Origin: Demequina sp. NBRC 110051
GTDB taxonomy: Bacteria; Actinomycetota; Actinomycetes; Actinomycetales; Demequinaceae
DNA length: 64,000 bases
Reading direction: 5' to 3'
Assembly: GCF_002090055.1 (NCBI RefSeq)
Contig: NZ_BBRH01000012.1
Location: forward strand, 62,001 to 126,000
Shown here: in pieces, positions 1,171 through 33,138 of the stretch
Numbering within the stretch: the stretch's first letter is position 1
Layout of the letters: every line of letters begins with the position of its first letter
Notes under the pieces: generated by a model
What the model was told of the DNA's origin: nothing
Database searches by the model: none
What the model saw: the letters and a program-made list of their open reading frames with translations, nothing else
Translations under genes and position numbers: made by a program

Positions 1171-2340
1171 TCAGCGGGCCCGCACGCGCAGCGCGCGGTC
1201 GACGGCATCGGGCAGGACGGCCATGAGCGCGTCCACGTCCGCGTCCGTCGTCGTGTGCCCCATCGAGATGCGCAGCGTCGAGGAGGCATCGGCGTGCGAG
1301 TACCCCATGGCCTCCACGACATGGCTCGCCTGGACCACGCCAGCGACACAGGCCGAGCCGTTGGAGACCTCGACGCCGTGACTGTCGAGCACATACAGCA
1401 GCGCCTCCCCGGGGGCGCCGGGGACGATGAGGTGGACGATGCCCGGCAGGTGCGCACCGGCCGCAGCGGGGCCCGACACCCATGCCTGGGGGATGTCGGC
1501 GTCGATCAGCGCGACGAGCCGATCCCTGAGCGCGCCCAGCCGAGCCTCCTCGGCGGCGCGTTCCGCCACGGCAGCCTCAACGGCCACGGCCGCGGCGATC
1601 GCGCCGGCAGGGTCGAGCGTGCCGGAGCGCACCGATCGCTCCTGTCCCCCACCGTGCGTGAGGGGCGTCAGCCGCGCGCGGCGAGCCAGCAGCAGGGCGC
1701 CCACGCCCACGGGGCCGCCCACCTTGTGAGCGCTGAGCGCCAGCGAGGTCAACCCCGACGCGGCGAAGTCGACCGCGACGTGACCCACCGCCTGGACGGC
1801 ATCCGAGTGCACCGGGATTCCGTGAGCGGCCGCGAGCGCCGCGACCTGTGCGACCGGCTGCAGTGCGCCCACCTCGTTGTTGGCCCACATGACGGACGCG
1901 AGCGCGATCTGGCCCGCATGCTCCGCTAGTTCCCGCTCGAGCGCGTCGAGCCGCAGCACGCCCGTGCGGTCCACAGGCAACTCGACAGCCGTGGCACCCT
2001 CAGCGGCGGCGAGCCACCGCACCGGGTCGAGCCCCGCGTGATGCTCGACGGAGGTCGTCACGACCCGGGTGCGCGCGGCATCGGCCCCCCGCCGCTGCCA
2101 AAAGTGACCCTTGATCGCGAGGTTGTCCGCCTCCGTGCCGCCGGAGGTCCAGATCACCTCCGTGGGATGGGCGCCGAGAGCCGCTGCCAGGCGTTCGCGC
2201 GCCTCCTCGACGATGGCCCTGGCACGCCGTCCGGCGCCGTGCAGTGCCGACGCATTGCCGACCTCTGCACTCGCCTCGAGCCACGCCGCGCGCGCGGCCG
2301 GCCTGAGCGGCGTGGTGGCGGCGTGGTCGAGGTAGGTCAC
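1171..2340 (-). CDS. Cysteine desulfurase (NifS/IscS-like, class V aminotransferase)
   Basis: 389 residues, full length for the family. It is a PLP enzyme that moves sulfur from L-cysteine to an acceptor for tRNA thiolation or Fe-S assembly. Visible motifs: YLDHAATTP at the N-terminus, SGGTEADNLAIKG, the EHHAG histidine region, SAHKVGGP with the PLP lysine at about residue 206, RSGTLDP, and the catalytic Cys at about residue 331 in NGSACVAG. In many actinobacteria this gene follows etfB-etfA and precedes mnmA. Here etfBA lie on the same strand about 5 kb upstream, separated by a nuclease and an SDR gene. No scaffold protein gene is in view. A role in tRNA 2-thiolation is inferred from that synteny. 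Confidence 0.93.
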   Translation of the reverse strand: MTYLDHAATTPLRPAARAAWLEASAEVGNASALHGAGRRARAIVEEARERLAAALGAHPTEVIWTSGGTEADNLAIKGHFWQRRGADAARTRVVTTSVEHHAGLDPVRWLAAAEGATAVELPVDRTGVLRLDALERELAEHAGQIALASVMWANNEVGALQPVAQVAALAAAHGIPVHSDAVQAVGHVAVDFAASGLTSLALSAHKVGGPVGVGALLLARRARLTPLTHGGGQERSVRSGTLDPAGAIAAAVAVEAAVAERAAEEARLGALRDRLVALIDADIPQAWVSGPAAAGAHLPGIVHLIVPGAPGEALLYVLDSHGVEVSNGSACVAGVVQASHVVEAMGYSHADASSTLRISMGHTTTDADVDALMAVLPDAVDRALRVRAR

Positions 2341-2378
2341 GGCGCCCAGTCTAGAAAGCGGCGCGCTACGGTGGCGCC

Positions 2379-2798
2379 ATGACGGAGATTCCCGGCAGCC
2401 AGCGCCTGCACCAGCTCGCCCTCCTCACGCTCGACCACGGTGTCGCCTCGGCCGCTGACGGCCCCGTGATCGCGTTCACCGTGGAGGAGGACGCTGCGGG
2501 AAAACGGTCGCTGAACCGCTTCGCGTCGGACACCCTCGAGGAGGGGCTCATCCACGCGCGTGCGAGCCTGCGCGAGTCGCCCGCGGACCTCATCGCCGTG
2601 TGCTTTGACGGATTCGTGACGCTCGAGGAGGGCAAGTTCGACGCCATCTGGGTGATGGCGCAGGAGCGCGGCGAACTGCGCTCGCAGTCCTTCTTCCAGC
2701 GCTACCAGCCGGCCGATGCCGAGGGCGGTTTTTCCCCGATCGGCAACGCCGGGTGGGGCGGCTCGGCCGACCCGTTGTGGCGGCCCGACAACGACTGA
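2379..2798 (+). CDS. Conserved hypothetical protein, 139 residues
   Basis: Begins with ATG at 2379, 38 bp from the divergent cysteine desulfurase start, so the two share a short promoter region. The product is soluble and acidic, with no signal peptide or membrane segment. It reads like a small alpha/beta domain followed by a Gly/Trp-rich tail (FSPIGNAGWGGSADPLW). I do not recognise a named family or catalytic motif. Codon use and composition match the neighbours. Its TGA stop overlaps the first bases of the bidirectional hairpin at 2797-2834, which shows where this gene ends. Function unknown. Confidence 0.7.
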   Translation: MTEIPGSQRLHQLALLTLDHGVASAADGPVIAFTVEEDAAGKRSLNRFASDTLEEGLIHARASLRESPADLIAVCFDGFVTLEEGKFDAIWVMAQERGELRSQSFFQRYQPADAEGGFSPIGNAGWGGSADPLWRPDND

Positions 2799-30273: not shown

Positions 30274-33138
30274 ATGCCAGAGGACAACCTTCCGTTCCCC
30301 GTTGCCATGCGTGGCTACGACCGCGAGGCCGTCGCCGCCCATGTGGCGCGACTCGAGGATGCGGTCAAGGAGGCGCGCGAGGCCGCCGAGCAGGCGCGCC
30401 AGGACGCGGACGCGACCCGGTCGTCGCTCGACGAGGCCCAGAAGAGCCTGCGCGAGTCCGAGCAGCCCACCTACAAGGGCCTCGGTGCTCGCGTGGAGCA
30501 GCTGCTGCGCTCAGCCGAGGAACAGTCCTCCGACGTGGTGGCGCGCGCCAACACGCACGCCCAGGACACCGTGGCTCGCGCCCAGGTGTCCGCACAGCAG
30601 CTGCGCGCGCGTGCCGACAACGAGGTCGCCGAGATTCTCGCGCAGAGCCGTCGCGAGGCCGAGGAGATCCGCGCCGCCTCCGAGCACGAGGCCACCGGGG
30701 TCAAGGAGGCCGCGCAGCGCGCCGCCGCCGAGACGGTCGAGAAGGCTCGCCGCGACGCCGAGCGCGTGAAGGCCGGCATCGACGCCGAGGTCGCCGAGCT
30801 CAAGGCCGGCGCCGACCGCGAGGCGCACGCGCTGCGCGCGACGGCCGAGCGCGAAGCCACCGAGATCCGTGTCGCCGCCCAGCGCGAGGCCGACGAACTC
30901 CTGGAGTCCGCGCGCTCCGAGGCCGAGGAGGCCATCGCCAACGCGACGGCCGAGGCGGACCGTGTGCTCGCCGAGGCCGAGCAGGAACTCGCCGACGCGC
31001 GCGCCGAGGCCAAGCGTCTCGAGGGCGAGGCCCGCGACGCGAAGGCGGCGGCCGATGCCGAGGCGTCCGACATCCGTGCGACCGCCGAGGCCGACGCCGC
31101 CAACCTTCGCAACGAGGCCCACTCGTTCCTCACGCAGGCGAACCGGGAGGCCGAGGCGACCCGTGCATCGGCCGATACCGATGCCAGGGACCTGCGCGCG
31201 ACCGTTGCCGCCGAGGTCGCGTCGCTGCGCGCCGACACGGATGAGTACGACGAGGCCATGCGCGCCGACGCCGAGCTGTACGCGACCGGCACGCGCGACG
31301 AGGCCGACGCCTACAGCCGTGCCACTCGCGACGAGGCCGACCAGTACTCCGCCTCGACCCACGCGGACGCCGATGCCTACGACTCCGCGACGCGTGAGAG
31401 CGCCGAGGGCGACGCCGCCCAGGTGCGCGCCGACGCGCAGGCGCACCTGGACGAGGTGACCGCGGCCGCGGCCGCGCACCGTGCCGAGGTCGAGGCGGGT
31501 GCCGACGAGTACGACCGCGCCACGCGCACCGCGGCGGATGACTACGCCGCGACCACCAGGGCCGAGGCGGACGAGGACGCACGCGACGTGCGCGAGGCCG
31601 CCGATGCCTACGACGAGGCGACGCGAGCCGACGCCGAGGCACACCTCGAGACCGTCCGCTCGGAGGCCGACGAGTACCGCAACGTCACCCGCGCCGAGGC
31701 GGACGACTACCGCACGGTCACCACCGCCGATGCTGACAGCTACGCGCTCGAGACCCGCACCAATGCCGACGCCTACTCCGACGCCACGCGCGCCGACGCC
31801 GACGCGTACCGCGAGGCGACACAGTCCGAAGCGGACGCCTACCGCGAGGCTACCCAGTCCGACGCCGACCGCTACGGCCGGCGCACGCGTGCCGAGGCTG
31901 ACACGTACTCCGAGGACACGCGCGCAGCCGCGGACGAGTACGACGCCGCCACGCGCGCCGACGCAGACGACTACCGGACGGCCACGACCGCGGAGGCTGA
32001 CGGCTACCGCGAGCGCGTGCAGGGCGAGGCCGACGCCTACTCGGAGACCACGCGCCGCGAGGCCGACGAGTACCGCCACGCGACCCACGGTGCCGCCGAC
32101 GCGTACAGCGCCGAGACCCGCGCCGCCGCTGACGACTACAGCAGCCAGACCCGGGCCGAGGCGGACACCTACGACGCGGACACCCGCGGCGCCGCCGACG
32201 AGTACGACGCCGCGACGCGCAAGGGCGCCGAGGACTACGCGGACGCCACCAAGTCCGCTGCGGAAACCGCGAGCCGACAGGTGCGCAAGGACGCCGACCT
32301 GTACGACCAGGCCACGCGCCGGGCCGCCGACGAGTACGACGCCGCCACGCGCACGTCCGCGGACGACGACGCCGCCACGGCTCGCCGGGAGGCCGACGAC
32401 TACGCGGCCACCACACGCACCGACACGGACGCGTACGCCGAGACCACGCGCCGCGAGGCCGACGCGTACGCGCTGTCGACCCGCGAGGGTGCCGACAGGG
32501 ATGCGGCTCGCACCGTGCAGGCGGCGAGCGACGAGGCCGAGGAGCGCCTCACCGCGGCGCAGCAGGAGGCCAAGCACGTCATGGGCATCGCCCAGCGCGA
32601 CGCCGACCAGGCACGCGCCGAGGGCGCCGCGGACGCCGACGCCGCCCGCGAGGAGGCCCGCCGCGCCCGCGAGGACCTGCAAATCGAGATCGCGCAGCGC
32701 CGCGAGGCGGCCGAGAAGGACCTCACCGCGCGTCACGAGGAGGCGAAGGCCGAGACCGCCGCGATGGTCGAGGACGCGCGTGTGCGCGCCGACGAGGCCG
32801 AGGAGCGCCTGTCCAGCGCCCTTGAGCGCGCCGAGGTCACCCGACGCGACGCCGAGGTCCACGCGCAGACCCTGCTCACCAACTCGCGCAACAACGCCGA
32901 CGAGATCGTCTCCGAGGCACGCGAGCACGCCGAGGCGATCATCTCCGAGGCCGTCTCCGACGCCGAGCGCGAGCGCACCATGGCGCAGCGCGAGGTCGAC
33001 GAGCTGAACCGCCAGCGTGAGTCCATCACCGGCTATCTCGACGAGCTGCGCAACCTCCTGGGTGCGGACCCGATCGCGGGCCTGGCCAAGGCATCGGCCC
33101 TGCGCCAGGAGCACGAGGCTGCCGAGGCGGGCAACTAG
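30274..33138 (+). CDS. Scy/DivIVA-like giant hendecad coiled-coil protein
   Basis: 954 residues from ATG 30274, AAGGAG ribosome site. The N-terminal ~30 residues (FPVAMRGYDREAVAAHVARLE) resemble the DivIVA membrane-curvature segment. A short linker follows, and then almost the whole protein is helical with an 11-residue period. Residues ~130-320 are classic hendecads with Leu/Val/Ile. Residues 321-749 are 39 uninterrupted Tyr-bearing units. Residues ~750-935 return to a charged coiled coil (RRDAEVHAQTLLTNSRNNADEIVSEAREHAE), ending in a DivIVA-like ELNRQRESITGYLDELRNLLG. Family knowledge: Scy and FilP of Streptomyces are similar scaffolds for polar growth. Here a polarity or septum scaffold is inferred. 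Confidence 0.85.
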   Translation: MPEDNLPFPVAMRGYDREAVAAHVARLEDAVKEAREAAEQARQDADATRSSLDEAQKSLRESEQPTYKGLGARVEQLLRSAEEQSSDVVARANTHAQDTVARAQVSAQQLRARADNEVAEILAQSRREAEEIRAASEHEATGVKEAAQRAAAETVEKARRDAERVKAGIDAEVAELKAGADREAHALRATAEREATEIRVAAQREADELLESARSEAEEAIANATAEADRVLAEAEQELADARAEAKRLEGEARDAKAAADAEASDIRATAEADAANLRNEAHSFLTQANREAEATRASADTDARDLRATVAAEVASLRADTDEYDEAMRADAELYATGTRDEADAYSRATRDEADQYSASTHADADAYDSATRESAEGDAAQVRADAQAHLDEVTAAAAAHRAEVEAGADEYDRATRTAADDYAATTRAEADEDARDVREAADAYDEATRADAEAHLETVRSEADEYRNVTRAEADDYRTVTTADADSYALETRTNADAYSDATRADADAYREATQSEADAYREATQSDADRYGRRTRAEADTYSEDTRAAADEYDAATRADADDYRTATTAEADGYRERVQGEADAYSETTRREADEYRHATHGAADAYSAETRAAADDYSSQTRAEADTYDADTRGAADEYDAATRKGAEDYADATKSAAETASRQVRKDADLYDQATRRAADEYDAATRTSADDDAATARREADDYAATTRTDTDAYAETTRREADAYALSTREGADRDAARTVQAASDEAEERLTAAQQEAKHVMGIAQRDADQARAEGAADADAAREEARRAREDLQIEIAQRREAAEKDLTARHEEAKAETAAMVEDARVRADEAEERLSSALERAEVTRRDAEVHAQTLLTNSRNNADEIVSEAREHAEAIISEAVSDAERERTMAQREVDELNRQRESITGYLDELRNLLGADPIAGLAKASALRQEHEAAEAGN
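31234..32520 (+). repeat. 39 tandem 33-bp coding units (11-residue hendecads)
   Basis: Reading in steps of 33 bases gives 39 units with no insertion or deletion. The consensus is (E/D/A)AD-x-Y-x-x-x-T-R-x, for example EADAYREATQS. Tyr recurs at position 5 in most units, and Leu is nearly absent. DNA copies are diverged except for units 18-19, which are nearly identical. Confidence 0.95.

Follow-up and report, generated by a model that had tools for sequence, protein, structure and literature searches.

In a 64,000-nucleotide stretch of the Demequina sp. NBRC 110051 genome (assembly GCF_002090055.1, contig NZ_BBRH01000012.1, positions 62,001 to 126,000, hereafter the window) we analysed a gene whose product, judged from its sequence, is best called the Demequina ortholog of FilP, a coiled-coil protein of the intermediate-filament-like type that carries a DivIVA-like head. 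The kind of protein, a FilP-type hendecad rod protein, is already known, and the element of interest is an array of 39 eleven-residue units inserted into its rod, most of them with a tyrosine at the same place. We consider it probable that the array forms a hendecad coiled coil, built as a straight rod of adjustable length around a core of alanine, threonine and tyrosine. This reading builds on the identity of the gene, as given by homology, and on the register, conservation, length steps and recurrence of the array.

Residues 321-749 fall into exactly 39 rows of 11 with zero insertions or deletions, as the initial annotation of the window had proposed when it described 429 residues in unbroken phase. 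It had also called every unit tyrosine-bearing, which holds for 31 rows; all 31 tyrosines of the array fall in column 5, and the other eight rows have Asp, His or Ala in this column (residues 376, 387, 398, 431, 453, 662, 695 and 739). Column 2 is Ala in 37 of the 39 rows and column 3 is Asp in 32, while column 9 is Thr in 30 and Val in seven, and column 10 is Arg in 28. In 20,000 shuffles the number of Tyr in any single phase averaged 5.6 with a maximum of 11, and these controls, together with the conservation described below, rule out chance or a composition artefact as the origin of the pattern. Leucine is nearly absent, as had been noted (6 of 429 residues, alongside ten Val, one Met and no Ile, Phe or Trp). 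The Tyr does not stand exactly where Leu stood, however: the Leu in the rows directly N-terminal to the array occupies column 9, which turns into Thr or Val, and the Tyr appears in column 5. The alanine content of 26% agrees with the Ala-rich hendecad rods of the FilP/Scy group; passages of PMC9858780 describe the rods of this group as hendecad-expanded with Ala-rich cores, and hendecad coiled coils as largely unexplored.

The columns differ in how strongly they are conserved. The array of genome G015 is 67% identical and gap-free in alignment, and column 5 agrees in every one of the 39 rows, the eight that lack Tyr among them (hypergeometric 7e-8), with a nonsynonymous difference per site (pN) of 0.000 compared with 0.217 for the array. 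In this pair the ratio of nonsynonymous to synonymous change (dN/dS) amounts to 0.015 for column 2, 0.12 for column 9 and 0.16 for column 3, but reaches 0.52-0.79 in columns 4, 6, 7, 8 and 11. Likewise, the array of G213, which is 86% identical and one 11-residue unit shorter, retains column 5 in 38 of 38 rows (pN 0.000), with a dN/dS of 0.027 in column 2 and 0.084 in column 9. Column 5 is also the same in 33 of 34 and 32 of 33 rows in the more distant G010 and G036, the alignments of which contain several gaps.

A match to the window protein was found in all 36 other congeneric genomes searched, and 35 distinct Demequina proteins, the window protein included, were compared. Excluded from this set were broken, split or partial proteins (L033, L047/L071, L059, L061/L070 and G019) and L049, which equals L031; four later sightings (G107, G265, G314 and G701) stand outside it. 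The complete extracted Demequina proteins range from 443 to 1182 residues. With each of the 35 proteins divided rigidly into elevens, starting at its residue 216, a single column took up 578 of the 585 Tyr and 77 of the 80 Trp in the inserts, a bias not shared by Phe (25 of 68) or His (51 of 339). The distance between the conserved anchors, taken modulo 11, gave five remainders: 5 in 16 proteins with 12 distinct lengths (456-775), 8 in 12 proteins with six lengths (822-998), 1 in five proteins with four lengths (595-749), and 4 and 2 in one protein each. Insert length thus changes mostly in steps of 11, in whole units only inside a remainder class, and the five remainders imply that the phase to the C-terminus has shifted a few times. 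Variation in unit number among relatives, which the initial annotation had named as a point to check, is thus seen in these orthologs. The array is derived and specific to this lineage, an extension of the FilP rod, because the insert is missing from FilP of the sister genus (G186, 513 residues from the likely start) and of Demequina G021 (443 residues), and eight proteins from outgroup families have 0-19 rows between the equivalent anchors. The longest of these outgroup stretches, in genome G057 of family f20, has seven of its eight Tyr in one column.

Several of the Demequina genes have peculiarities of their own. The ortholog in G018 (L052) contains, at residues 376-485 or thereabouts, a 22-residue repeat (EADRYFSxKTA/EADELHGAKVx) in which Tyr-Phe and Leu-His units alternate in a homogenised sub-array. 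The filP genes of Demequina litorisediminis (L033) and G026 (L059) are split over several frames, possibly because of assembly errors in a repetitive GC-rich gene. A search of plasmid and phage collections with a 198-residue part of the array gave no match, which speaks against cargo of a mobile element, albeit weakly with the low-complexity filter of BLAST switched on.

The predicted structures are consistent with a rod. For the whole protein, AlphaFold2 gives a near-continuous helix from an alignment of four sequences (mean predicted local distance difference test score, pLDDT, 62.6; 164 of 954 residues below 50), with a break at residues 62-67, and for the array alone, from three sequences, helices at 2-198 and 206-428 of 429 (pLDDT 72.5). 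The hydrophobic period of the array is 3.67 residues. A helical rod with a period of 11/3, as put forward in the initial annotation, is thus upheld by both the predicted helix and the hydrophobic period, and the disorder that was named beforehand as the opposite outcome is not seen in the AlphaFold2 models, which give helix at moderate confidence. Ala2, Tyr5 and Thr9 lie on one stripe with the hendecad spacing 3-4-4, and at three turns per eleven residues simple arithmetic puts the angle of Thr9 between those of Ala2 and Tyr5. According to passages of PMC9858780, the residue that points to the axis of dimeric hendecads must be small, and the placement of Thr9 therefore agrees with this rule. 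In an 11-residue frame the hydrophobic moment points to 111-173 degrees in windows of the array and to -37 to -70 degrees in residues 68-232, and between the array and the adjacent 33-residue windows no step in the moment exceeds about 70 degrees.

One hypothesis, which we favor, is that the rod was lengthened as 33-bp units were gained and lost whole, and that Ala2, Tyr5 and Thr9 would together make up the only core stripe of a hendecad coiled coil with almost no twist. The small Thr would point to the axis, flanked by Ala and Tyr, with Asp3 and Arg10 placed for salt bridges at the edges. Such an array would be a straight helical spacer of some 64 nm (429 x 0.149 nm), adjustable in steps of 1.6 nm with its register kept, and it might determine how far the DivIVA-like heads stand from the conserved C-terminal region within a filament network at the pole or septum. 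The coiled-coil state, the oligomer, the core role of Tyr, the spacer function and the cell location are what we infer from the observations above. Self-assembly into striated filaments characterises FilP. For the assembly of Streptomyces coelicolor FilP, a 60-nm repeat is given in passages of PMC6599971.

Several observations weigh against this hypothesis. Relative to residues 68-232, the hydrophobic stripe in the array is turned by some 160-200 degrees, a change spread across residues 233-331, and a core of Thr, Ala and Tyr is weakly hydrophobic. The AlphaFold2 confidence is moderate, from alignments of three to four sequences, and the predicted template modelling score (pTM) is 0.21-0.36. 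Unequal crossing-over of 33-bp repeats alone would yield steps of 11 residues, so that the steps alone are no proof of selection. Furthermore, two orthologs have arrays of His/Ile hendecads (L039 in G005 and L043 in G009; EHESRIAxER) and one has Leu hendecads (L068 in G035; RETNELRT), with almost no Tyr in all three, and in eleven orthologs four or more Trp are mixed with Tyr and Leu. The composition of the core thus varies and Tyr is not required across the genus, so that the Tyr module would be one of several solutions for a long hendecad rod. The tree of these proteins came from a quick search and left 16 of its 40 inner branches open. Against G213, dN/dS in columns 4, 6, 7, 8 and 11 is 0.13-0.45, and these columns are near-neutral only in the comparison with G015. 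Finally, column 5 also shows little synonymous change (pS 0.15 over 13-14 sites, compared with 0.42-0.46 for the array), which may reflect codon bias or constraint at the DNA level and add to the zero nonsynonymous difference; all 31 array Tyr codons of the window are TAC, and only one of 30 and one of 31 Tyr codons changed in the two close pairs.

We also considered the possibility that the helices pair otherwise and that Tyr and Trp form an external aromatic ladder for lateral bundling or for binding of a ligand such as cell-wall glycan. The Trp of the orthologs shares the Tyr column almost without exception, as do part of the Phe and His, the Arg of column 10 could contact the Tyr, and passages of PMC6224456 report an in vitro affinity for cellulose for the coiled-coil proteins FilP, Scy and DivIVA. 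However, the unit has no second conserved apolar stripe that could serve as the core, and the Tyr stripe runs on into the hydrophobic face of neighbouring windows in the angular steps described above. Contact with glycan is also left unexplained if FilP is cytoplasmic, as it is in Streptomyces, and we regard such a ladder as unlikely.

Still less likely, in our judgement, is a near-neutral expansion, in which tandem duplications accumulated in a tolerant helical rod, only helicity and register were maintained, and homogenisation of the units produced the Tyr bias as a side effect. Such an expansion would fit the different flavours of the array among species, the drift in its length and the weaker constraint on the array than on its flanks (dN/dS 0.37 compared with 0.12-0.16, against G015), as well as the wide variation in rod length in the FilP/Scy group that is described in passages of PMC9858780. 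It does not fit a Tyr column that is free of nonsynonymous change in two pairs and nearly so in the two more distant ones, nor the reappearance of the array consensus in distant families, among their DivIVA, Scy and FilP-like proteins.

The initial annotation had suggested a phosphorylatable ruler. On this reading the array tyrosines would be substrates of a bacterial tyrosine (BY) kinase that sets the assembly. Tyr is indeed periodic, the Demequina genome of the window has one match above the cut-off (G000:C6) to TIGR01007, the one BY-kinase family searched, and such matches occur in 25 of 31 genomes with a Tyr array and one of four others (Fisher p 0.044, uncorrected for kinship and draft genomes). 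A weak association thus remains, but we consider the idea very improbable, because six of the 31 genomes with a Tyr array have no match above the cut-off (G001, G003, G007, G010, G029 and G032, the first two assembled as single contigs), and G009, with two matches, has no Tyr in its insert; a core-like placement would also hide the hydroxyl groups.

The identification of the gene as filP, rather than scy, draws on both ends of the protein. Members of the FilP/Scy group have an N-terminal GYDxxEVD motif and are obligate dimers, according to passages of PMC9858780. In the window protein this motif reads RGYDREAV (residues 13-20), where A replaces the E and D of EVD; an Arg precedes GYD, and the short coiled coil that follows in this group corresponds to a helix at residues 17-61 in the AlphaFold2 model of the whole protein. 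Residues 1-209 searched alone score 28.1 bits on the Pfam DivIVA model PF05103 (cut-off 28), whereas the full-length protein gave no match at E <= 0.001. A whole-genome DivIVA search did not list the window FilP, though it listed FilPs from other Demequina, some of which pass the cut-off only together with their neighbours in frame.

In the Streptomyces-type genome G482, the polarized growth protein Scy scores 1569.7 bits on the NCBIfam model NF041483, above its curated cut-off of 1040 bits, whereas the window protein has no match to this model at E <= 0.001. The protein adjacent to that Scy, a 322-residue open frame, aligns with window residues 1-240 (E 7e-13) and, in a second block, with residues 757-929 (E 3e-8), so that the two blocks flank the array, one on each side. 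No family model names this neighbour, which we take to be FilP from its place beside Scy. Residues 757-929 can be aligned to the FilP of L182. A Scy ortholog is ruled out by the absent NF041483 match and the FilP blocks, which, together with the separate DivIVA of the same genome (G000:C8, 291 residues, no Tyr array), argue for FilP. Thus, the label of a Scy-like scaffold in the initial annotation was right about the FilP/Scy group and not about Scy. The window protein also scores far below the cut-off of the DivIVA/Wag31 model NF050102 (19.4 compared with 260 bits), although this cut-off is strict, with a DivIVA of family f4 (L136) also falling under it at 52.2 bits.

With FilP of the SCO5396 type the window protein shares the DivIVA-like head, the LGARVE(K/Q) block, the hendecad rod and the C-terminal ESI/DSI...L..(V/L)R block, the N-terminal half of the rod opening at residue 68 with the FilP-like block YKGLGARVEQLLRSAEE; it differs in the 39-unit insert and in a length of 954 residues compared with the 322-residue frame in G482. 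With Scy it has a very long hendecad rod in common, and not the match to the Scy model. The genes around it presumably resemble the filP neighbourhood of Streptomyces. Conservation of the neighbourhood among relatives also supports the identification as FilP: a trx-TPR gene is present in 33 and a gene for a 139-residue protein in 35 of 37 Demequina pieces (L035-L071, some short), and the 16 pieces from other families (L072-L087) have the trx-TPR gene in eight cases and NucS in four. Crotonyl-CoA reductase and methylmalonyl-CoA epimerase, found in some FilP clusters, were absent among the 18 window proteins scanned, FilP included, which did not comprise every gene. A search for relatives with solved structures found none at E <= 0.01. 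The 11-residue period is also a feature of the amphipathic helices of apolipoprotein A and LEA group 3 proteins; kinship with these was rejected on matches that were sub-threshold only (apolipoprotein, 49 bits compared with a gathering threshold of 90), and no homology is claimed.

The coordinates of the gene and its parts are collected in the table. The start codon was chosen by alignment, with Met at the equivalent aligned position in all 35 Demequina proteins. On the minus strand, an open reading frame for 867 residues lies opposite the gene (window positions 30511-33114) and most likely reflects no more than the high-GC repeat on the other strand.

Table. The filP-like gene and the parts of its product (positions in the window)
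Feature	Position	Strand	Residues	Remarks
filP-like gene	30274..33138	+	954 aa plus stop	ATG 30274; longest open reading frame from GTG 30199
DivIVA-like N-terminal motif RGYDREAV and first coiled coil	30310..30456	+	13-61	
Ala/Leu hendecads, N-terminal half of the rod	30475..31233	+	68-320	hydrophobic period 3.66 (68-254)
Tyr-hendecad array	31234..32520	+	321-749	39 x 11 residues; consensus (E/D/A)AD-x-Y-xxx-T-R-x
Conserved C-terminal rod and end	32521..33063	+	750-930	ends ESITGYLDELRNLLG; conserved in A3

The Tyr hendecad is not confined to Demequina. A search with the array (E <= 1e-8) in 297 genomes of the order matched 48, namely 22 Demequina including the genome of the window, 23 of family f4, which we take to be the Bifidobacteriaceae, and three of family f20; at this threshold, neither Demequina G035 nor the sister genus (G186) gave a match. 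In f4, all 13 hits examined of the 23 are DivIVA (in most of them MALLTPKDIREHTF...GYDVDEVDDFLDQV) with an array of the window consensus near the C-terminus, and the array lies between conserved LHDQYV and FE..Y blocks (loci L136-L142, L144-L146, L103, L107 and L115). In all 13 the anchor distance leaves a remainder of 3 modulo 11; six different lengths occur, the shortest 135 and the longest 223, and between 6 and 15 of the 7 to 17 Tyr in each protein fall in one column. The DivIVA/Wag31 arrays of f4 thus share with the window array the unit consensus, the steps of 11 and the placing of most Tyr in one column, and differ in belonging to a paralogous family and in lying near the end of DivIVA, whereas the DivIVA of the window genome has no Tyr array. 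In f20, the three hits, plus G057, are FilP-like. Among the other DivIVA proteins, that of G018 (L131) has a linker with a GAPGV/GDDAP tandem repeat.

A 66-column profile built from 25 Tyr-hendecad arrays (E <= 1e-6) matched, beyond the genome of the window, eight of 395 genomes of the phylum and seven of 393 of the class, 14 of them distinct. Of ten matched proteins that were scanned, eight match the Pfam DivIVA model, seven of these above the cut-off, and N-termini of the RGYD/RGYN type were seen by eye in G902 (scanned, no DivIVA match), G787, G884 and G1009. The Scy of G482 (by its NCBIfam model) holds a 3-unit Tyr array and the Scy-like protein of G1009 a Phe version. Strict Tyr-hendecad motifs number one to five per protein, with zero in the Phe version of G1009 and seven in G526 (L181), where a frame of 347 residues (1607-2647, minus strand) has no recognisable DivIVA-like head. 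Taken together, 13 of the 14 profile-matched proteins appear from their sequences to belong to the DivIVA superfamily, nine of them by a model. The question raised beforehand, whether such arrays are common in FilP and Scy, has a divided answer: among the genomes searched, tens of units occur only in Demequina, and shorter arrays recur in DivIVA, FilP and Scy. One tentative interpretation, to which we give somewhat less than even weight, is that the AD-x-Y-xxx-T-R hendecad is a recurrent module of the actinobacterial DivIVA superfamily, a class with an Ala/Thr/Tyr core that has arisen or spread several times (in FilP of Demequina, f20 and f24, in DivIVA of f4, in Streptomyces-type Scy and in other DivIVA-like proteins) and may act at poles and septa as a rigid, evolvable ruler.

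By titles and abstract openings, the searchable literature gave no hendecad array with a column of Tyr for FilP, Scy or DivIVA, although earlier papers on the hendecads of Scy and FilP may mention one; the words tyrosine, Tyr, aromatic and Demequina are absent from the main text of PMC9858780. The 39-unit array with its conserved Tyr column and the amplification of the same unit in paralogous pole and division proteins together offer a natural set of rods, ranging from a few units up to 39 and including variants with Tyr, Trp, Leu or His, in which core composition can be related to helix packing, stiffness and filament spacing. Our findings suggest that the rod length of DivIVA-superfamily scaffolds evolves in register-preserving steps.

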